DNA of 55,147 nt. It comes from Verrucomicrobiota bacterium (GTDB lineage Bacteria; Verrucomicrobiota; Verrucomicrobiia; Limisphaerales; UBA9464). Under the pieces are notes generated by a model. It saw nothing but the letters and a program-made list of their open reading frames with translations. It ran no database searches and had not been told where the DNA came from. The position numbers were made by a program, and so were the translations under genes. The stretch lies in assembly GCA_029865985.1 (NCBI GenBank), contig JARXAF010000074.1, forward strand, positions 1-55,147. Reading direction: 5' to 3'. Positions 3,639 to 24,994 of this stretch are shown here, piece by piece (positions within the stretch are counted from its first letter, which is position 1; each line of letters begins with the position of its first letter).

Positions 3639-4372
3639 GTCAGAATGCGGAGATGCCCTTGCCTCCGGCCGCTCCGGGGCTTCCGAAATGGCTGCGGATC
3701 GCGCTCAAGATTCTCCTCGGTGGCTTGGCGGTGCTCATCACGTTGCTGGTGGTGGGTTTGTTGAGTTTTGATTGGATCGTCAAGCGCACGATCCAGTCCC
3801 GAGTCAATGCCAGCGGAGTGGCTGAAGTGGAGATCGGAAGCCTGAATATCGGATTGCTCCGCCCTCATCTGGAAGTCCGCAATCTCAAGGTCTTTGGCCA
3901 GTCCCAGTTCGGTGGCGTTCAAATACTCGATCTGCCGGAATTGCGCGTGGAGTACGATCGCGACGCCTTCAAGGCGCAGGAGTTGAAGCTGCGACTGCTC
4001 CGCATCCGACTCAATGAACTCACCTTGGTGGATGGGTTTGCCGGGGGAGACACCAACATGTTCCAACGCCTCCAAGGCTATTCGGAACTCATCGTCGCCT
4101 ACACCAATCGCTTGAGCGAAGTCACCAACCGACTCGACCTCGCCAGCGCCCAGCGTATTGGCAATGCGACCTTCACCGGTTTGGATCGATTGGAACTCAC
4201 CGTGGGGCGGGTCCGCTTTTTGGATATGAAAGACCCGCTCTCCGAAAAGGTGGCGACGTTGAACATCAACCGGCGGGTGATGACCAACATCACAGACCTT
4301 TCCGGGATGGCACCCTTGGCCATGGAGCTGTTGGTGCGCACAACCCTCGGGGCCAAGCCGGTCAACCGTTGA
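3635..4372 (+). CDS. AsmA-like membrane-anchored protein
   Basis: About 245 residues. A cytoplasmic Pro-rich start is followed by one strong membrane segment (ILLGGLAVLITLLVVGLLSF), then a periplasmic part with the beta pattern seen at the N-terminus of AsmA/TamB-type proteins (EIGSLNIGLLRPHLEVRNLKV, then LPELRVEYD). It is far shorter than AsmA, so it keeps only the opening module. I prefer the GTG at 3635, which overlaps the upstream stop as GTGA; an ATG at 3653 is possible. AsmA-like proteins act in outer-membrane lipid and protein homeostasis; that role is inferred here from fold resemblance only. Confidence 0.6.
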   Translation: MSQNAEMPLPPAAPGLPKWLRIALKILLGGLAVLITLLVVGLLSFDWIVKRTIQSRVNASGVAEVEIGSLNIGLLRPHLEVRNLKVFGQSQFGGVQILDLPELRVEYDRDAFKAQELKLRLLRIRLNELTLVDGFAGGDTNMFQRLQGYSELIVAYTNRLSEVTNRLDLASAQRIGNATFTGLDRLELTVGRVRFLDMKDPLSEKVATLNINRRVMTNITDLSGMAPLAMELLVRTTLGAKPVNR

Positions 4373-12373: not shown

Positions 12374-14137
12374 ATGGCGATGACGAAGAGGTTAGCAGCA
12401 CAGGGCCGGGGCTTTTTGGCGGCGATCGTTGCGGTCGGTATCGCCGGGGCCTCTCAAGGGCAGGAGATTCCAGTCAACGAGAAGACCCTCCCCAATGGCA
12501 TGAAGTTGCTGATGGTGGAGCGTTCCGGAGAACCGCGCATCTCGGGCGGTTGGGTGGCCCACGTGGGGTCCTCGAATGAAAAGCCTGGGATGACCGGCAT
12601 CGCCCATCTCTTTGAACACATGATGTTCAAGGGCACCCCGACCTTGGGCACCAAGAATGCCGTCAAGGACCGCGAGATCATGGAGCAGCAGGAGCGCCTG
12701 CGTGACGAAATCCGTCTCGAGGAGTCCAAGCTCCGGGCCGCGCTGCGCCGAGGGGATGTCACCGACATCACCAGCCCTGAATCCAAGAGCCCCCGTCACC
12801 GCGAACTCGAGGCTCAGTTCAAGAAACTCATCGATGCTCAGCGCGAGGTGCTGGTGAAGAACGAGTTCGACCGCGTGTACACCACTGCCGGTGCCTCGGG
12901 AATGAACGCCTTCACCTCCGAGGACATGACGGCCTACTTCATCACTGTCCCGGCCAACAAGCTCGAGTTGTGGATGTGGATGGAAAGCGAGCGCCTCCTC
13001 AGGCCTGTCTTCCGCGAGTTCTACGCCGAACGCGACGTCGTTTTCGAAGAGCGGCGGATGCGCACCGAATCGACCCCCATCGGCAAGTTCGCTGAACAGT
13101 TCAACGCCCTCTTCTGGGATGCTCACCCGTACCACTGGCCGGTGATCGGATGGCCCAGCGACATCCCGGCCATTTCCAAGAAACAGGCCGACGAATTCTA
13201 CGCCCTCTACTACCAGCCGCAGAACCTGACGCTCATCCTCGTGGGCGACTTCAAGGCCAGCCAAGCGGTGCCCATGGCCGAGCGTTATTTCGGGCGCATC
13301 CCCCGGGGCAGCCAACCTCCGCCCGAGGTCACCACCCTCGAGATTCCCTCCCTAGGCGAGAAACGCTATTACGCCGAAGCCGAGACTAATCCCCAGGTGG
13401 ACATTCTTTGGCGCACCGTGGGCTTCGGTCACAAAGACAGCTACCCGCTCGAGGTCGTTCAGCAACTCCTCCTCGGGCGCACGGGTCGTCTCCACAAGGG
13501 GCTGGTCTTGGGCTCTCAGGTATCCACCGACGTTTCAGCCCAGCAAGATTCCCGCAAATGGGCCGGGGCCTTCAACATCTCCGCCGAAGTGAAGGACGGG
13601 CACACCACGGATGAAGTTGAGAAGGCCATCGAGAAAGAACTCGACCGCCTCAAGACCGAAGACGTGCCTGCGGACGAATTGCAAAAGGTGAAGAACAACT
13701 TCGCCGCTGCCGAGTACCGCAAGCTCTCCGCCAACACGCCGATCCTGTTCCAGCTCATCTTCAATGAAGGCCTGGGCGATTGGCGCGAGGTGAATACCGG
13801 CGGAGCGAAGATCCAGGCTGTGAGCGTCGGCGACGTGAAGCGGGTGATGGGGCAGTATTTCAAGAAGGAGAATCGGGCCGTGGCGGTTTATACCCGCAAG
13901 CCCGGCTCCGGATCGTCGGCCGAGGATCCCGACATGACCGGTCTCTCGCCGGAACAGAAGCCCGTGGCTCGGCAAATCACCGCGGCCATCCAAGGCGAGA
14001 AAGATGCGGCTGGACTGAAAGCGCAACTGGCCAAGATCGAGGCGGCGCTTGCCTCGGCGGACCCGAAAAAGCAGCCCCTCCAGAAGTTCATGATCCGCAA
14101 GATCACGGCCCGGATCAGCGAATTGGAGAAGCACTGA
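12374..14137 (+). CDS. M16 family zinc metallopeptidase, exported
   Basis: About 587 residues. A signal peptide follows the ATG at 12374 (FLAAIVAVGIAGASQGQ); the open frame extends to 12233 but its start is Pro/Arg-rich and improbable. The inverted zinc motif HLFEH is at residues 78-82, inside GIAHLFEHMMFKGT. Between it and the downstream conserved region is a charged helical insertion of about 70 residues (REIMEQQERLRDEIRLEES). An M16 C-terminal domain follows, then a charged C-terminal helix. This long form with a coiled insert is known among M16 proteins from several phyla. Predicted periplasmic peptide degradation or processing. Divergent from the fusion gene. Confidence 0.9.
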   Translation: MAMTKRLAAQGRGFLAAIVAVGIAGASQGQEIPVNEKTLPNGMKLLMVERSGEPRISGGWVAHVGSSNEKPGMTGIAHLFEHMMFKGTPTLGTKNAVKDREIMEQQERLRDEIRLEESKLRAALRRGDVTDITSPESKSPRHRELEAQFKKLIDAQREVLVKNEFDRVYTTAGASGMNAFTSEDMTAYFITVPANKLELWMWMESERLLRPVFREFYAERDVVFEERRMRTESTPIGKFAEQFNALFWDAHPYHWPVIGWPSDIPAISKKQADEFYALYYQPQNLTLILVGDFKASQAVPMAERYFGRIPRGSQPPPEVTTLEIPSLGEKRYYAEAETNPQVDILWRTVGFGHKDSYPLEVVQQLLLGRTGRLHKGLVLGSQVSTDVSAQQDSRKWAGAFNISAEVKDGHTTDEVEKAIEKELDRLKTEDVPADELQKVKNNFAAAEYRKLSANTPILFQLIFNEGLGDWREVNTGGAKIQAVSVGDVKRVMGQYFKKENRAVAVYTRKPGSGSSAEDPDMTGLSPEQKPVARQITAAIQGEKDAAGLKAQLAKIEAALASADPKKQPLQKFMIRKITARISELEKH

Positions 14138-14202
14138 ACTCCAGGGTTTGAAGGGCAACCGGGTCTCCAGCGTCGGGTCCGGGTTGGTACGAAGAGTCTT
14201 CG

Positions 14203-14775
14203 ATGAGCATGGCCTCCACAGAGTCGGATTTGCTGCAACCGCTGAGGGAAATCTACGGTGATGCCAACCATGCGCTACCCCGCCTGGAGGTCTTGGCGGG
14301 CACCGAGATCCCGGAGCCTTATCGCAGCTTGCTGGTCCATGACCGCGACATGACCCGCACCCTCGAGGCCCACCATGGCGATGGAATCCGCCTTCGAACT
14401 CTGACTTGTGGAACTCAGGACGGCATCTATCGGCGGATGGTCGCCTTGGAGTTGGAGCACTCCGGGCAAGCCGTCGAGTTCGGAGCGACCCGGGTTCACC
14501 TGGAGCGTTTTCCAGAACCGTGGCGGGGTCTGATTCTCGCAGGACAGCGTCCGCTCGGCGGGATTCTCAATGCCTGGGGAATCGCCTATCGCAGCCGTCC
14601 CTCGGCCTTTTTCCGCACCGACGCCGATGAGCGCATCCGCGAAGCTCTCGGTTTGACCGCTCCGGTGCTCCTCTACGGGCGCCGCAACACCCTCTTCGAT
14701 GCGGAGGGACTTCCGTTGGCCGACATTCTGGAAATCCTCCCTCCGATCCCTCTCAGTCCCGCCGACACTCCTTAG
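14203..14775 (+). CDS. chorismate lyase-like (UbiC/UTRA-fold) protein
   Basis: 190 residues, soluble. The pattern LLVHDRDMTRTLEAHHG, GATRVHLERFPEPWR and RPLGGILNAWGIAYRSRPSAFF resembles the chorismate pyruvate-lyase fold, which is shared by UbiC and the UTRA ligand domain. The enzyme family makes 4-hydroxybenzoate from chorismate, but related proteins have other roles, and no ubiquinone or menaquinone gene is adjacent. An alternative ATG at 14209 exists (MASTESD). The TAG stop is formed by the TTA target site plus the first G of the downstream MITE-like element. Confidence 0.65.
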   Translation: MSMASTESDLLQPLREIYGDANHALPRLEVLAGTEIPEPYRSLLVHDRDMTRTLEAHHGDGIRLRTLTCGTQDGIYRRMVALELEHSGQAVEFGATRVHLERFPEPWRGLILAGQRPLGGILNAWGIAYRSRPSAFFRTDADERIREALGLTAPVLLYGRRNTLFDAEGLPLADILEILPPIPLSPADTP

Positions 14776-14933
14776 AGCCTGTCTGAAAATGGGGAGGGGT
14801 TCTGCGGCGGGGCTTTCCGGCTTGGACTGCGTTGGTTCGGGCGGAACAGACCGTAGGAGGTCTGCCCCGCCGCTCACCGCCTTGCCCAAACCAGAATTCC
14901 CCAGCCGCAGGCCCCCCATTTTCAGACAGACTC
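14775..14933. mobile_element. MITE-like element with IS5-type terminal inverted repeats
   Basis: A 159-bp element bounded by near-perfect inverted repeats: left GAGCCTGTCTGAAAATGGGG (from 14775) and right, read on the other strand, GAGTCTGTCTGAAAATGGGG (from 14933). These differ at one position over 20. It is flanked by a TTA direct repeat (14772-14774 and 14934-14936), a target duplication typical of IS5-related elements. It has no coding capacity, so it would need a transposase supplied elsewhere. Removing the element and one TTA restores a site where the two neighbouring genes overlap at their stop codons. Confidence 0.85.
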
Positions 14934-15422
14934 TTAGGATCTGCGATGGCGGTCAAACAGCACGGCGGCCTGGGTACGCGAGTTCACGCCGAGTTTTTCA
15001 AAGACCCGTTCGAGATAGTTGCGAACTGTTTTCGGCTGAAGGCCCAGTGCGACGGCGATTTCCTTGTCGGTCTTTCCGTCGGCAACTGCGGCAAGCACGC
15101 GGCGTTCTTGCTCTGAAAGTTCCCCGAGGGGATTCGTGGGCGGGTTCGGGAGGACGTTCTTCAGTTCTCGGTCTACGGCGCGCGCCACGATCGGATCAAA
15201 CATCATGCCGCCGCTGAGCACGGTGCGAATGGCCGCCACGATGTCGCGCGGTTCGTTGTCTTTGAGCAAGTATCCGTCGCCCCCCCCCGCCTGACGAAAG
15301 AATTCACCAATCCATGATGAGCCTCCCGACGGCTTGGTTCGGCCCTGCCAAGCATGGCCGGAGAAATGGCTAAAAACGTGGTTTAATAGCGAATATGGGC
15401 TGGCTCTTAAAAGCAATAGCAT
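14934..15422 (-). pseudogene. LuxR/NarL-type response regulator, 5'-truncated
   Basis: The C-terminal half is an intact NarL-type helix-turn-helix: LSEQERRVLAAVADGKTDKEIA, then LGLQPKTVRNYLERVFEKLGV. Before it is only the end of a receiver domain (GDGYLLKDNEPRDIVAAIRTV). The first 85-90 residues of the receiver, including the phospho-acceptor Asp, are missing. The codons upstream of about 15315 encode nothing receiver-like in any minus frame, so this is a real 5' loss rather than a single frameshift. A run of nine C at 15280-15288 lies close to the break. Called a pseudogene; a constitutive HTH protein from an internal start is possible. Confidence 0.75.
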
Positions 15423-15451
15423 GAACTATTTAACTACAAAATCCCTGATCA

Positions 15452-17869
15452 ATGAAATCCTCTCTTTGGTTGCCGATCCGCATCGGATCGTTTGCGGCCC
15501 TTGCACTGTCCTCCGGACACTGGGCCATGGCTCAGACTCCCGGGTCCACCAACGTCCTCGATAAAGTCGTTGTCGAGGGGCTCTCCATTGAGGAGACCGT
15601 GTTGCCGACGGCTCGTCCGGTCGAGTCCGTCATGGGGGATGACCGCAGCGTTCTGGAGACTCCCCGCTCGGTGTCGCTGGTGACTAAGGCTCAGATGGAA
15701 GCCCGTGCGATTTCCCGCGCCACGGATTTCAATCAGTACTCGCCGGGCGTTTACACCCCGTCACGTTACGGTCTGGCCAATGTGCCGGTCATCCGCGGTG
15801 ACCTTTCGGAAATCTACCAGAACGGACAACGCACCATCTACAGCCGTAACGCGGTGCTCGCGAGTTTCAACGGCGTGGAGGCCATGGACATCGTCAAGGG
15901 ACCGGGATCCGCGGTCTACGGACCACAAGGACAAGGTCCGGGCGGCTACGTGAACTTCGTCACCAAGCTGCCGTACTTCGACGGATTCCACGGAGAAGTT
16001 CTGAGCCGCTGGGGAACCTACGTTCCCGGTGGTCAAAGCTACTTCAATCCGGAGTGGGGCATCGATTTCGGCGGACCCATCAATGACAAGCTCGCCTTCC
16101 GGGTGAGCTATCTGGGTCGTGAGGCCGAGGGCTACTACCGGAACGTCAAGGACAACACGCAGGACATCTTCACGGCGCTGACGTGGCGTCCCAACGAGAA
16201 GCTGACGGTCGACTGGAACGCGCAGTTCTACACCTCCCGCTTCAACGAGGTCATCGGCATCAACCGTGTCACCCAGGAGTTGATCGATGACTGGACTTAC
16301 ATCGCCGGCCCCGTCTTGCCGAACAACCGCTTCGGTGACGCGCTGATCTCCATCGGTCCATACGGTCAGAACGCCAACTTCGCCCTGCTCAACACCAATC
16401 TTGCCACCCGGGTGAAGGTGTATCCGTGGCAGACGATCAACGCCCCGTTCGACAGCGCGGCGGGCCAGAAGTTCTCCTCGCAGCTCATCGCCAATTATCA
16501 GATCAACGACTTCGGGAAAATCGTCAACCGGACCTATGGCGAGACCATGGAGTCCCGCAAGGCTTCCGGTTATGGCTACACCGAATGGGTGCCGGAAAAC
16601 TGGATGGCCAACAACCGTTCGGAGTTGCACTACGAAATCACCCCGGCTGTCGCCAATTACGAGTTGCCCATCAAGACCATCAGTGGCGTGGACTTGCGCT
16701 ACCAGTCGATGGTCTCGTACCTGGACTTCTCGGTGGAGCCGTTCTTCCTGTACGACGTCACCCAGCCGCCTTCGACCTTCCGGCTGCCGCCCACGCCCTT
16801 GGTGAACACCTACGGCGGCAGTTCCCTGCTGATCCCCGGCGCCCCAGGCTATGGATCGAACGGGTTCGCTGTCGGCGACCAGAACTCGGAGATCGCCCAG
16901 AGCGGATTCTTTACCCAGTGGGACATGAAGCTGCATGACAAGTTCTCCATCATCGCTGGCGGCCGCGGCGACCTCATCGGGGCCCAAGCCAAGAGTCCCG
17001 AGTACGTGGGCAAGGCCGCGGGGTCGAACTACAACGTGAGCACCGATGTGTTCAACACCTCGGTCTTCATCAGCGGCATCTACAAGTGGACTCCGGTCCT
17101 GAGCAGCTACGCCACCTACAATGTGGTCAACGCCATCCAGGGCAGCTCCAACTTCGGCGGCGTCAACGGCACCGGCAACACCGAGGATTCCCTGAAGCAG
17201 TCGCTCTCGACGGAGAGCGAGTTGGTCGAGTTCGGACAGAAGGCCAGCCTCCTCGACAACAAGGTGTTCCTCAGCGGATCGGTCTTCCAGCAGACCCGGC
17301 AGGTCCCGCAGTTGGTCGGCAACCCGGTCGGCGTCAGGACGATGGGCTTCGAATTCGAGTCGTTCTACCAACCGAACCGGAACTTCAACGCCAGCGCCAA
17401 CTTCACCTACCAGAACGCGGAGCAGGATGACTTCGGCTACCAGCAGACGGGCAGTTACCTGGATGGCTACCCGGTGGGCTTCCTTGTGGATGGCGTTTCG
17501 GGCACCGGCCTTGGCTCTCCGAACTACACTACGGTTAAACGCGGTAAGACCCGAGCTGCGAGTGTGCCTCAGGTGATGTTCAACTCCTACGTCACCTATC
17601 AGTTGGACAACGGCTTTGGCGCCAGCTTCGGCCCGCAAGTCACCGGTGAACAGTGGCAGAACCAAGAGGGATCGCTGCGCATCCCCATGCAGTACGTCAT
17701 CAACGCGTTCGTGTTCTACCGCCAGCCGAAGTGGGACGTGCAAATCAACTTCCTCAACATCACCGACCAACGGAACTGGACCTCCATCGATCCGAGTTTC
17801 GCGGGCAATGACGTGATTTATCCGGAACAGCCGTTCCGAATCAGTGGTCAGCTCCGTTTCCGGTTCTGA
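15452..17869 (+). CDS. TonB-dependent outer-membrane receptor
   Basis: 805 residues. Signal peptide ends near WAMAQ (residue 28). A TonB-box-like DKVVVEG follows, then a plug domain (about 60-170: ETPRSVSLVTKAQM, VPVIRGDLSEIYQNG, IVKGPGSAVYGPQGQGPGGYVNFVTK). The rest is a 22-strand-type barrel ending in FRISGQLRFRF with the terminal Phe typical of outer-membrane proteins. The plug resembles siderophore receptors (FhuA/FepA class), but the ligand cannot be read from sequence. The roughly 130-bp upstream region is AT-rich and probably holds the promoter. It stands alone: no TonB, ExbB, ABC importer or Fur gene is nearby. Confidence 0.93.
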   Translation: MKSSLWLPIRIGSFAALALSSGHWAMAQTPGSTNVLDKVVVEGLSIEETVLPTARPVESVMGDDRSVLETPRSVSLVTKAQMEARAISRATDFNQYSPGVYTPSRYGLANVPVIRGDLSEIYQNGQRTIYSRNAVLASFNGVEAMDIVKGPGSAVYGPQGQGPGGYVNFVTKLPYFDGFHGEVLSRWGTYVPGGQSYFNPEWGIDFGGPINDKLAFRVSYLGREAEGYYRNVKDNTQDIFTALTWRPNEKLTVDWNAQFYTSRFNEVIGINRVTQELIDDWTYIAGPVLPNNRFGDALISIGPYGQNANFALLNTNLATRVKVYPWQTINAPFDSAAGQKFSSQLIANYQINDFGKIVNRTYGETMESRKASGYGYTEWVPENWMANNRSELHYEITPAVANYELPIKTISGVDLRYQSMVSYLDFSVEPFFLYDVTQPPSTFRLPPTPLVNTYGGSSLLIPGAPGYGSNGFAVGDQNSEIAQSGFFTQWDMKLHDKFSIIAGGRGDLIGAQAKSPEYVGKAAGSNYNVSTDVFNTSVFISGIYKWTPVLSSYATYNVVNAIQGSSNFGGVNGTGNTEDSLKQSLSTESELVEFGQKASLLDNKVFLSGSVFQQTRQVPQLVGNPVGVRTMGFEFESFYQPNRNFNASANFTYQNAEQDDFGYQQTGSYLDGYPVGFLVDGVSGTGLGSPNYTTVKRGKTRAASVPQVMFNSYVTYQLDNGFGASFGPQVTGEQWQNQEGSLRIPMQYVINAFVFYRQPKWDVQINFLNITDQRNWTSIDPSFAGNDVIYPEQPFRISGQLRFRF

Positions 17870-22115: not shown

Positions 22116-23033
22116 TCAGCGCGGTTTTCGGGCAGTGACCTTTTCGGTGAAAGTGCCAGATCGCCATTCTTTGTCTACCTTCGAAGCGAGCATTTGCCAT
22201 CCGGCCTGCTCAAAGGCCTTGCGAACCAGGTTGAACTGGGTCTCCAGGATTCCGGCCAGAACCAGCGATCCACCGGGGGCCACGCGGGCCAGAAGGCGAT
22301 CGCGTTCAGCGATCAGCAAATCATAGATCAAATTGGCGCAGACGACCGAATAGCGTTGTTTGGGTTTCTTGGGAACTTGCGTGATGTCGTCCTGGGTCAC
22401 CTTCAGGATCTCCGCAACGCCGTTGAATTCGGTGTTCTCGTTGGAGACTCGCACGCAGTCGGGATCGAAATCAAAGGCGCTGACCGGTTGGTAGCCCAGC
22501 TTGACCGCCGCGATGGCCAGGATTCCGGATCCGGTGCCGACATCGAGCATGGACTGCGCCGACTGGGGATCCCGGAGGGCGACGAGTTGCTCGAGGCAGA
22601 ATCGGGTGGTTGCATGCTGGCCTGTGCCGAAGCTCAGTCCCGGGTCGAGAACCACCAGAGCTTGGCTCTTTTTCGGTGCGCGGCGGCTCCAGGTGGGTTT
22701 GACCAGCAATCGCGGGCCGAGATCCAGCGGCTTGAAATGGCGCTTCCACGATTCAGACCAGTCGCGGGCGGGCACCTTTTTGACCTGGATTCGCGCCGGC
22801 GCGATCTCGATCCCATCGGCTGCCAAAGCTTGCAGGCCCTCACGGAGTCGCCGTTTGATGCCGGCCACATCGCGGGTGGCGATCTCCCCGTAAACACTCA
22901 CGGTGGCCAGTCGGGTGACGGCGTCGGCGAAGGAGGAGGGGGTTTGACCGCGTTCCAGTTCCAGCAGGACGCCCACGGCGTCTTCAGCAGACAGGGAAGT
23001 GGTGATGGAAATGGATCGGAGGAGTTTGCTCAT
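22116..23033 (-). CDS. prmA: ribosomal protein L11 methyltransferase
   Basis: About 305 residues. The SAM-binding motif LDVGTGSGILAIAAVKLG and the PrmA-specific DPGLSFGTGQHATTRFCLE are both clear, and ANLIYDLL is the motif-IV region. The N-terminal domain includes WSESWKRHFKPL, which in PrmA orients L11. It trimethylates lysines and the N-terminus of ribosomal protein L11. The start at 23033 overlaps the phosphatase stop (ATGA); an open frame continuing upstream to 23114 is only the other reading of that gene. Last gene of an rph-phosphatase-prmA operon. Confidence 0.93.
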   Translation of the reverse strand: MSKLLRSISITTSLSAEDAVGVLLELERGQTPSSFADAVTRLATVSVYGEIATRDVAGIKRRLREGLQALAADGIEIAPARIQVKKVPARDWSESWKRHFKPLDLGPRLLVKPTWSRRAPKKSQALVVLDPGLSFGTGQHATTRFCLEQLVALRDPQSAQSMLDVGTGSGILAIAAVKLGYQPVSAFDFDPDCVRVSNENTEFNGVAEILKVTQDDITQVPKKPKQRYSVVCANLIYDLLIAERDRLLARVAPGGSLVLAGILETQFNLVRKAFEQAGWQMLASKVDKEWRSGTFTEKVTARKPR

Positions 23034-23653
23034 GCGTCTCGCCAAGGGGTGAAATTGAGGAGTTGGACTTCGGTGCGTGGGCGGCCGGCCTTGATTTCGC
23101 CGATGTCCAGCCAAGTCACTGAAGCATAGTCGATCTCGAAGTGTTCGAACTTGCTCAACGGCAGGTCCAGCAAGATGGCCAGCGCCATCCGAATCACGCC
23201 GCCGTGCGCGTACAGGGCCACACGTTGGCCTGCCGATGCGCGGAGGATTTGTTCGATGGCCTGCCCAACTCGGCCTTGGAATTGGGCGAGGGTTTCACCT
23301 TCCGGGATGGCGTCTGTTTCGAGGTGCTTCAGCCAATCGTAGGCGCTCATCCCGAAGCGGTGCTCGACTTCATCCCAGCCGCAGCCCGTCCAGGCGCCGA
23401 AGTCCACTTCGCGCAATCCGTCCATGAGCACGGGTGTTCCGGGAAACTGGCGGCGGAAGGGTTCCAGCGTCAATTGGACCCGCTGCATGGGGCTGGCGTA
23501 CACCGCATCGAAGGAGTGGCGGCTCAGCCATGAGGCCAGAGCTTGGGCCTGGGTATGCCCTCGGGCAGACAGGGCCATGTCGATCGTGCCGCCGAATTTC
23601 TTGTGGTAGAGATCCTCCACCTCGGCGTGCCGGCACAGGAAGAGTTGGGTCAT
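23030..23653 (-). CDS. histidine phosphatase family protein (phosphoglycerate mutase-like)
   Basis: 207 residues with the catalytic LCRHAE near the N-terminus (phospho-histidine H9 in RHA), the second Arg in SPMQRVQLT, the acid in REVDFGAWTG, and the second His in YAHGGVIRM. These mark the branch-2-like small-molecule phosphatase group that includes CobC and GpmB. The true substrate is uncertain; alpha-ribazole phosphate or a sugar phosphate is possible. It is joined to rph and prmA by ATGA overlaps on both sides. Confidence 0.88.
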   Translation of the reverse strand: MTQLFLCRHAEVEDLYHKKFGGTIDMALSARGHTQAQALASWLSRHSFDAVYASPMQRVQLTLEPFRRQFPGTPVLMDGLREVDFGAWTGCGWDEVEHRFGMSAYDWLKHLETDAIPEGETLAQFQGRVGQAIEQILRASAGQRVALYAHGGVIRMALAILLDLPLSKFEHFEIDYASVTWLDIGEIKAGRPRTEVQLLNFTPWRDA

Positions 23654-24387
23654 GGCGTGATCAGGGCCTGGCGCTGGGCGACGATCAATTCCTGGATTCC
23701 TTTTCGTCCGAGAGCCAGCAAGGCAGCCAGTTCGGAATCCGAGAAGGTGGCTTCTTCACCGGCAGCTTGAAGTTCGATGAATTGGCCTCGGTCATTCATG
23801 ACCAAATTCATGTCGACCGATGCATCCTTGTCTTCGGGGTAGTTCAGGTCGAGGAGCGGTACTCCGTTGAAAACCCCCATGCTGACGGCCGCCACCGAAC
23901 CCGTGATGGGATTGTCGTTGAGCAAACCGGCCGATTGGAGCTTGGCAATGGCCAGGCTGACGGCCACGAAGGCGCCGGTGATCGAGGCGGTCCGCGTGCC
24001 CCCGTCGGCTTGCAGCACGTCGCAGTCGATGCACAGCGTCCGCGCGCCGAGGCGTTCCAAGTCCACCACGGCCCGGAGCGACCGTCCGATGAGGCGTTGG
24101 ATTTCCTGGGAGCGCCCGTCGAGCTTGAGCTTGGAGATGTCCCGGGCTTTTCGGTCCAGAGTGGAGTACGGGAGCATGGAGTACTCCGCCGAGAGCCAAC
24201 CGCCTGGAACCTTTTGATCCTTCATCCACCGGGGCACTGATTCCTCGACGGTGGCAGCACAGATGACCCGGGTGTTTCCCCATTCAATCAGCGTCGAACC
24301 CGCAGCGTGCGGGGCGATGTGGTTCTGGAAGCGGATCGGTCGGAGTTGGTCGCAGCGGCGCCCATCGGTACGAACTGTGTCAGTCAT
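23650..24387 (-). CDS. rph: ribonuclease PH
   Basis: 245 residues from the ATG at 24387 (MTDTVRTDGRRCDQLRPI). Family signatures: GNTRVICAATVEE, GWLSAEYSMLPYST, the RNase PH signature GRSQEIQRLIGRSLRAVVD, and CDVLQADGGTRTASITGA. It is a phosphorolytic 3'-5' exonuclease that trims tRNA 3' ends. Length is normal. Longer in-frame extension to 24612 would run across the divergent TPR gene and is rejected. First gene of the operon; the promoter should lie in the 109-bp gap shared with the TPR gene. Confidence 0.95.
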   Translation of the reverse strand: MTDTVRTDGRRCDQLRPIRFQNHIAPHAAGSTLIEWGNTRVICAATVEESVPRWMKDQKVPGGWLSAEYSMLPYSTLDRKARDISKLKLDGRSQEIQRLIGRSLRAVVDLERLGARTLCIDCDVLQADGGTRTASITGAFVAVSLAIAKLQSAGLLNDNPITGSVAAVSMGVFNGVPLLDLNYPEDKDASVDMNLVMNDRGQFIELQAAGEEATFSDSELAALLALGRKGIQELIVAQRQALITP

Positions 24388-24496
24388 CGGGCCGGTGAGG
24401 CTGGGTGATTTTGGCCAAAAAGCAACGGGGACGGCGGCTGATTGATCCATTTTGACCTTTACGCTGGTGCGCTGGGTTCCGTAAAGCCATCCGTAC

Positions 24497-24994
24497 ATGG
24501 AAGAGTTGGGCTTTCCGGACCGCCACCACCTCCTGGCCGCGGAGGGTTGGCTGGGTTTGGGAGATGCCATGGAGGCGGAGAGTGAGTTGGCGCGCTTGAG
24601 CCCCGAGTGCATGGGTCACCCCACCGTCTTGGAAATCGAATGGCGCATCCATTCCCATCGACTGGACTGGGAAAAAGCTCTCGATGCGGCTCGGTGTTGC
24701 ATTGAGGCAGCTCCTCACTTACCGGCCGGATGGATTCACCAAAGTTACAGCCTCCACGAATTGGGTCGCACAAAGGAAGCATTCCAATCGTTGCATGCCA
24801 TTGTGCTTAAATTTCCAGACGAAAGCGTGATTCCGTACAATTTGGCCTGTTACTCCTGCCAGATGGGGGATTTGGAGGCCGCCCGACGCTGGTTTGATCA
24901 GGCGGTCCGGATCGGAGGCAAGGCGACGATCAAAGAAATGGCCGAGGATGACCCGGATTTGGAACCGCTGCTTCCGTACATCGAGTCGCTTTAG
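24497..24994 (+). CDS. TPR-repeat protein
   Basis: 165 residues of helical repeats. Three TPR-like units are visible (HHLLAAEGWLGLGDAMEAES; WIHQSYSLHELGRTKEAFQS; IPYNLACYSCQMGDLEAARR), ending with DPDLEPLLPYIESL. This C-terminal form is common in small bacterial TPR proteins that work as adaptors. No signal peptide. Divergent from rph across 109 bp; function unknown. Confidence 0.85.
   Translation: MEELGFPDRHHLLAAEGWLGLGDAMEAESELARLSPECMGHPTVLEIEWRIHSHRLDWEKALDAARCCIEAAPHLPAGWIHQSYSLHELGRTKEAFQSLHAIVLKFPDESVIPYNLACYSCQMGDLEAARRWFDQAVRIGGKATIKEMAEDDPDLEPLLPYIESL

Follow-up and report, generated by a model that had tools for sequence, protein, structure and literature searches.

A new IS1031-type MITE family in Verrucomicrobia, with one copy probably seated at the junction of two separate loci

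The 159-bp segment at 14775-14933 of the window (the whole 55,147-nucleotide stretch of DNA that was analysed) is a genuine non-autonomous mobile element, and comparison with related genomes indicates that it probably lies where two loci, found apart in the nearest relative, have been joined, rather than at a neatly split single site. The element itself is of an ordinary kind and belongs to a new IS1031-type family of miniature inverted-repeat elements (MITEs). Bacterial MITEs are short, non-coding elements with terminal inverted repeats, target duplications and dispersed copies. For the window we favour, at slightly better than even chances, an origin in which two copies of an IS1031-type MITE inserted independently and recombination between them then joined the two loci. 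The ends of the element, its copy number, its TNA flanks and the IS5 elements of the same order that carry like ends and TNA duplications are all direct observations within this reading.

The element lies between two genes and is bounded by 20-bp terminal inverted repeats with one mismatch. The left repeat (14775-14794, plus strand, GAGCCTGTCTGAAAATGGGG) is the exact family end, and the right repeat (14914-14933, minus strand, CCCCATTTTCAGACAGACTC) carries the mismatch (GAGTCTG...). A TTA stands on each side, at 14772-14774 and 14934-14936. Its delimitation as a 159-bp MITE draws on the ends, on paired copies and on a consensus alignment, in which the element in reverse orientation corresponds to positions 1-134 and 245-274 of the 274-bp consensus with a further 4-bp gap; it is thus the 274-bp form with 110 bp (consensus positions 135-244) absent internally. 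Its last 20 bases together with the TTA recur exactly in another of the fetched sequences (L065). An inverted-repeat search at the element reported 26 nt at 92% complementarity rather than 20 because TCC-TTA on the left and TTA-GGA on the right form an inverted pair of their own, and the long inverted repeat also accounts for the strong predicted RNA fold of 14772-14936 (-96.5 against a shuffle mean of -62.6 kcal/mol, z -7.46). A structured RNA was considered and rejected, as all three Rfam matches (MIR1858 twice and VA RNA) fell under the gathering score. A conserved non-mobile spacer is ruled out by the copy number of the element and by the empty sites in the nearest relative, G018.

Mobility is evident from the distribution of the family. 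The source genome (G000; 3.6 Mb in 216 contigs, 92% complete) holds 20 matches to the family end at up to three mismatches, against none for a reversed control pattern, which confirms that the inverted ends with one mismatch and a TTA on both sides, as described in the initial annotation, are not a chance arrangement, and that further copies exist in this genome. These comprise five complete copies of 41, 61, 142, 159 and 274 bp, three more seemingly cut by contig ends (on contigs C131, C189 and C201) and seven single ends. An exact-match scan of the contigs of other genomes yielded 73 loci, 72 of them titled Verrucomicrobia, Verrucomicrobiales or Akkermansia and one Proteobacteria; the last, L109, carries one MITE end at 4324-4343 in a MAG that is perhaps mislabelled or a mixed bin. 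Family matches occur in 18 of the 39 genomes searched with the source genome included (17 of the 38 others), and a viral contig collection gave no exact match to the family end. With terminal inverted repeats, dispersed copies in 113 distinct flanks and target duplication across copies, the proposal of a MITE-like mobile element is borne out. A literature search by titles and abstract openings found no published description of the family.

Paired copies span 41-288 bp, with a single 683-bp pairing (L060) that looks spurious, and fall into length classes of about 274, 142, 159 and 41 bp, which we read from the consensus fold as two hairpin modules that may be kept or lost. One insertion site in two species carries a 142-bp copy in one (L051, 7230-7371) and a 275-bp copy in the other (L077, 2813-3087), and the interior of the MITE can therefore be lost or exchanged in place. 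The shortest copy of the source genome (L022, 1501-1541 of contig C34) consists solely of the two 20-bp ends separated by a single base and is flanked by TAA left and right, and L055 carries the same 41-bp copy at the same site. Single ends at positions common to several species, with no second end recognised, were also seen at L060, L081 and L102 and at L066 and L078.

We infer that the MITE is mobilised in trans by an IS5-family, IS1031-type transposase. Paired ends 750-1100 bp apart surround 18 of 30 PF13340 transposase loci from the same order, of which 16 have TNA on both sides and 13 an identical TNA, under a pairing that tolerated up to 5 of 15 mismatches and a script that preferred pairs with TNA. 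In the stricter subset of eight of these 18 loci, with at most two mismatches at each end, seven have TNA on both sides and four an identical TNA. Two ORFs from PF13340 loci were scanned, and both were recognised as NF033580 IS5 family transposases over the cut-off, with PF13340 and PF01609. The similar ends and TNA duplications of the same-order IS5 loci fit the IS1031 group, for which the available text of PMC12016507 describes a TNA preference with a 3-bp repeat, and a member, ISLrh, of 857 bp with ends GAACCTGTCTAGTATCT. The source genome has no PF13340 match, and the partner is therefore either absent or unassembled there; its two PF01609 loci carry no family-type ends, and a full insertion sequence with matching ends, for which the initial annotation had proposed a search, was not found in this genome. 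An autonomous copy with the exact 20-bp end was likewise not recognised behind the 20 unpaired ends, at the PF01609 loci of eight genomes or in the end contigs of G028. In the PF01609 search, L136 showed two weak end-like matches that were unconvincing. In G028, from another family of the same order, contigs L143-L146 and L153 stop some 100 bp into an element with like ends; these end contigs were traced to eight and six places, no body of the element was recovered from the assembly, and the element behind the breaks could be the active IS.

The genes flanking the element are arranged such that both end at its borders. The left gene (14203-14775, plus strand, 190 aa) takes its TAG from the TA of the left TTA and the first G of the element. 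Searches of Pfam, NCBIfam and PDB sequences do not support its earlier label, chorismate-lyase-like, the one PDB match being an ATP synthase at E 0.72. On the other side, a LuxR/NarL-type response regulator ORF (14934-15422, minus strand) ends in TAA, and both genes do keep an in-frame stop, as had been stated. The regulator is truncated: only about 14932-15285, some 355 bp, is homologous to the response regulator of G018, and the start of the ORF lies outside that match. The homology breaks off near 15285, next to nine consecutive C, with the receiver start and the upstream kinase missing. A TonB-receptor block (15329-17869, plus strand; ORF 15452-17869) begins at 15329, where homology to contig C162 of G001 also begins, and a second copy of the receptor start, 87% identical to that of the window, is present in the same genome (G000:C99:11461-12512).

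Comparison with G018 places these two genes at separate loci. The left protein is 100% identical there, and at the DNA level window 12703-14775 is matched at 97.4%, with identity ending exactly at 14775. The G018 gene ends CTCC-TTA-G-CCC, with the TTA found at 14772-14774 of the window lying inside an uninterrupted CTTAG; no element is present, and a different gene follows, which appears Nudix-like by reading of the DNA rather than by family search. G009 and G018 are collinear around the end of the left gene (77%), and the source genome contains no match to the G018 sequence downstream of that gene. The regulator lies on another G018 contig (C326, 94.6% over 355 bp), again without an element and with its own TGA stop, so that TCA on the window strand stands where the window has TTA at 14934-14936; judged by reading of the DNA, it adjoins genes that look RidA-like and racemase-like. 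The RidA-like region shares a contig with the window's TonB block in G001 and G010, and in G006 its neighbour is sequence that matches 22126-24521 of the window. Further to the right, window 20000-28809 matches G018 contig C82 at 94%, by which the right side belongs to the same lineage as G018, and the TonB part matches at only 85.6%.

The wider genus agrees with this separation. A match to the left gene was found in 15 other genus genomes (in G017 only in part), and the right flank was matched in 14 of them, always on a different contig by comparison of contig names by hand, G008 being the one without a right-flank match; none of the genus genomes searched has both flanks on one contig. This is a weak test in G008, G010 and G011, where the contig ends no more than 0.5 kb from the left gene, and most right-flank matches cover the TonB part only, the regulator itself being found in G018 and partly in G009.

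The left and right sites are thus each empty in G018, at separate loci, and not as one joined site. The initial annotation had joined the flanks of the element into an empty site at which two convergent genes shared stop bases, and had taken this as the target of a single insertion. No such joined site was seen in relatives, in which the left gene is intact and the regulator stands elsewhere with TGA (G018), and the joined empty site is probably not ancestral. A separate TNA overlapped the stop codon at each locus, TTA on the left and, at the G018 regulator, TCA (TGA on the minus strand). Of the claimed TTA target duplication, the TTA on both sides stands, and its origin from one target is disfavoured by the G018 comparison, in which each locus carries its own TNA. 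Matching TTAs are in any case weak evidence, because about 28% of random pairs of the family's TNA flanks are expected to match, by arithmetic from the flank counts. We accordingly regard one insertion into a pre-existing site of convergent genes with common stop bases as improbable: the TTA on both sides, the in-frame stops and the fit to CTNAG all accord with it, but the loci are apart in G018, the adjacency occurs in no other genus genome searched, and an earlier rearrangement must have broken at exactly the trinucleotide later targeted.

In the origin that we favour, two insertions followed by recombination, an IS5-family transposase of the IS1031 type would insert the MITE at TNA, preferably CTNAG, and duplicate the TNA. 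Most likely, one copy inserted at the CTTAG that overlaps the left gene's stop codon, another inserted at a TNA that overlaps the regulator's stop codon, and the two copies then recombined, which joined the loci and left a single hybrid copy. Both frames still end at a stop because TNA can be TAA or TGA on either strand and the element begins with G, and the preserved stops would be a side effect of the choice of target and of selection against insertions within genes. Several observations speak against the recombination step. The TTAs of the window match, whereas the three other exchanged copies described below have mismatched repeats; among the genomes searched neither parental site was found with an element in it, and the reciprocal junction was not seen; and the regulator stop is TAA in the window versus TGA in G018. 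The rearrangement and the insertion could instead have been one step, in which the two ends of a transposing MITE joined the TNA sites of two loci, and for this both loci are unoccupied in G018 with a TNA of their own exactly at the junction. IS insertions with large rearrangements have been reported for other elements, but the events in the available text of PMC11708052 left no target repeats, unlike the window copy; a limited literature search found no IS1031-type precedent, and ordinary recombination gives the same end product. We hold this one-step origin to be very improbable.

Exchange of flanks between copies is also seen elsewhere in the family, which a comparison between genomes of 88 elements or ends (40 complete pairs) brought out. 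Among 23 flank matches between copies in different genomes, six were concordant, six discordant and 11 undecidable, the copy in these last being incomplete or the other flank too short. The concordant matches represent three sites (L041/L100, L051/L077 and L055/L022), and the discordant ones set L083 against L041 and L100, L073 against L041, L100 and L098, and L284 against L044, the discordance of L073 with L041 and L100 resting on a 100-bp flank. The exchanged member of each discordant pair is deduced from other copies and from the repeats. Those taken as exchanged have mismatched repeats (CAA/TTA in L083, TAA/TTA in L073, TTA/TAA in L284); among their counterparts, L044 and L098 have matching repeats, and L041 (CAA/TAA) and L100 (TTA/TTG) are mismatched. 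L284 is a MITE of the source genome itself (G000:C206, 2031-2304), with a flank exchanged relative to its G018 counterpart L044.

All these comparisons use draft assemblies, to which chimeras could contribute, and at the window itself two real MITE copies of different loci might have been misjoined through their shared interior during assembly. The contig comes from an assembly of 216 contigs and the genomes bearing on the junction are drafts of many contigs; the copies on C131, C189 and C201 appear cut off at contig ends, and the window copy has an identical run of 98 bases (from 14813) in common with the copy on C201 and one of 83 bases in common with that on C131. Both sides of the junction nevertheless belong to the same lineage, at 97.4% and 94% to G018, and the segments 14793-14816 and 14896-14925 are absent, at up to two mismatches, from all other sequences fetched. 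With the left junction and the right part unique in this way, a misjoin would have to run via the middle run alone, which weakens the case for a chimera, and we consider it unlikely.

The placement of insertions at stop codons can be understood from the target and from the loss of insertions inside genes. The family targets TNA, often as CTNAG: TNA precedes the end in 101 of 113 distinct flanks (a count in which one site in two species may enter twice), and C precedes TNA in 68 of these 101. A left TNA is present in 35 of 39 paired copies and missing from four; 24 of the 35 have the identical TNA on the right, and the remaining 11 include L070, which a contig end truncates. An ORF of 100 codons or more is closed by 16 of 101 TNA flanks and by 132 of 1742 CTNAG controls; with a minimum of 200 codons the figures are 12 of 101 and 55 of 1742. 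When the flanks of 35 insertions were joined, with gene calls made crudely by greedy longest ORF, six lay on a stop codon, 15 within an ORF and 14 in intergenic sequence. The six, which include one site in two species (L051/L077) and the window itself, exceed the 29 of 842 CTNAG controls (odds ratio 5.8, p=0.002). When only stop-codon and intergenic sites were compared, the odds ratio was 1.46 (p=0.57) for CTNAG controls and 2.18 (p=0.12) for any TNA. Special targeting of stop codons was therefore rejected, there being no enrichment over intergenic CTNAG sites, and we put the excess down to avoidance of gene interiors; stop-codon placement needs no special targeting because TNA is a stop on one strand and insertions inside genes are lost. 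A bolder reading, in which one transposition event joined unlinked loci at two stop codons and the family as a whole would serve as stop-seated exchange points at which genomes of the genus swap downstream content while leaving proteins unaltered, seems to us very improbable.

This work adds to the Verrucomicrobia MAGs an IS1031-type MITE family with several internal length forms. It also illustrates that joining the flanks of one mobile element is not proof of an ancestral empty site, an unsafe procedure because an element that targets TNA has a considerable chance of carrying equal repeats even where the junction is a hybrid. Provided that the flank exchanges are genuine rather than artefacts of assembly, these MITEs are active rearrangement points in the genus. 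Like bacterial MITEs, the family is short and non-coding, with inverted ends, target duplication, dispersed copies and a strong fold (z -7.46), and it is distinguished among bacterial MITEs in general by its length classes. Its ends of type GAGCCTGTCTGAAAA, TNA target and 3-bp duplication are those of the IS5 family and IS1031 group, from which it differs in having no transposase gene and in measuring 41-288 bp, compared with roughly 870-960 bp in the IS5 elements of order relatives and 857 bp for ISLrh in the available text of PMC12016507. Finally, although the copies involved are only 142-274 bp long and are known from draft assemblies, unlike the case presented in the accessible part of PMC11708052, the family resembles the IS-mediated rearrangement by recombination described there in that flanks are exchanged between copies and the repeats are mismatched on the exchanged copies.
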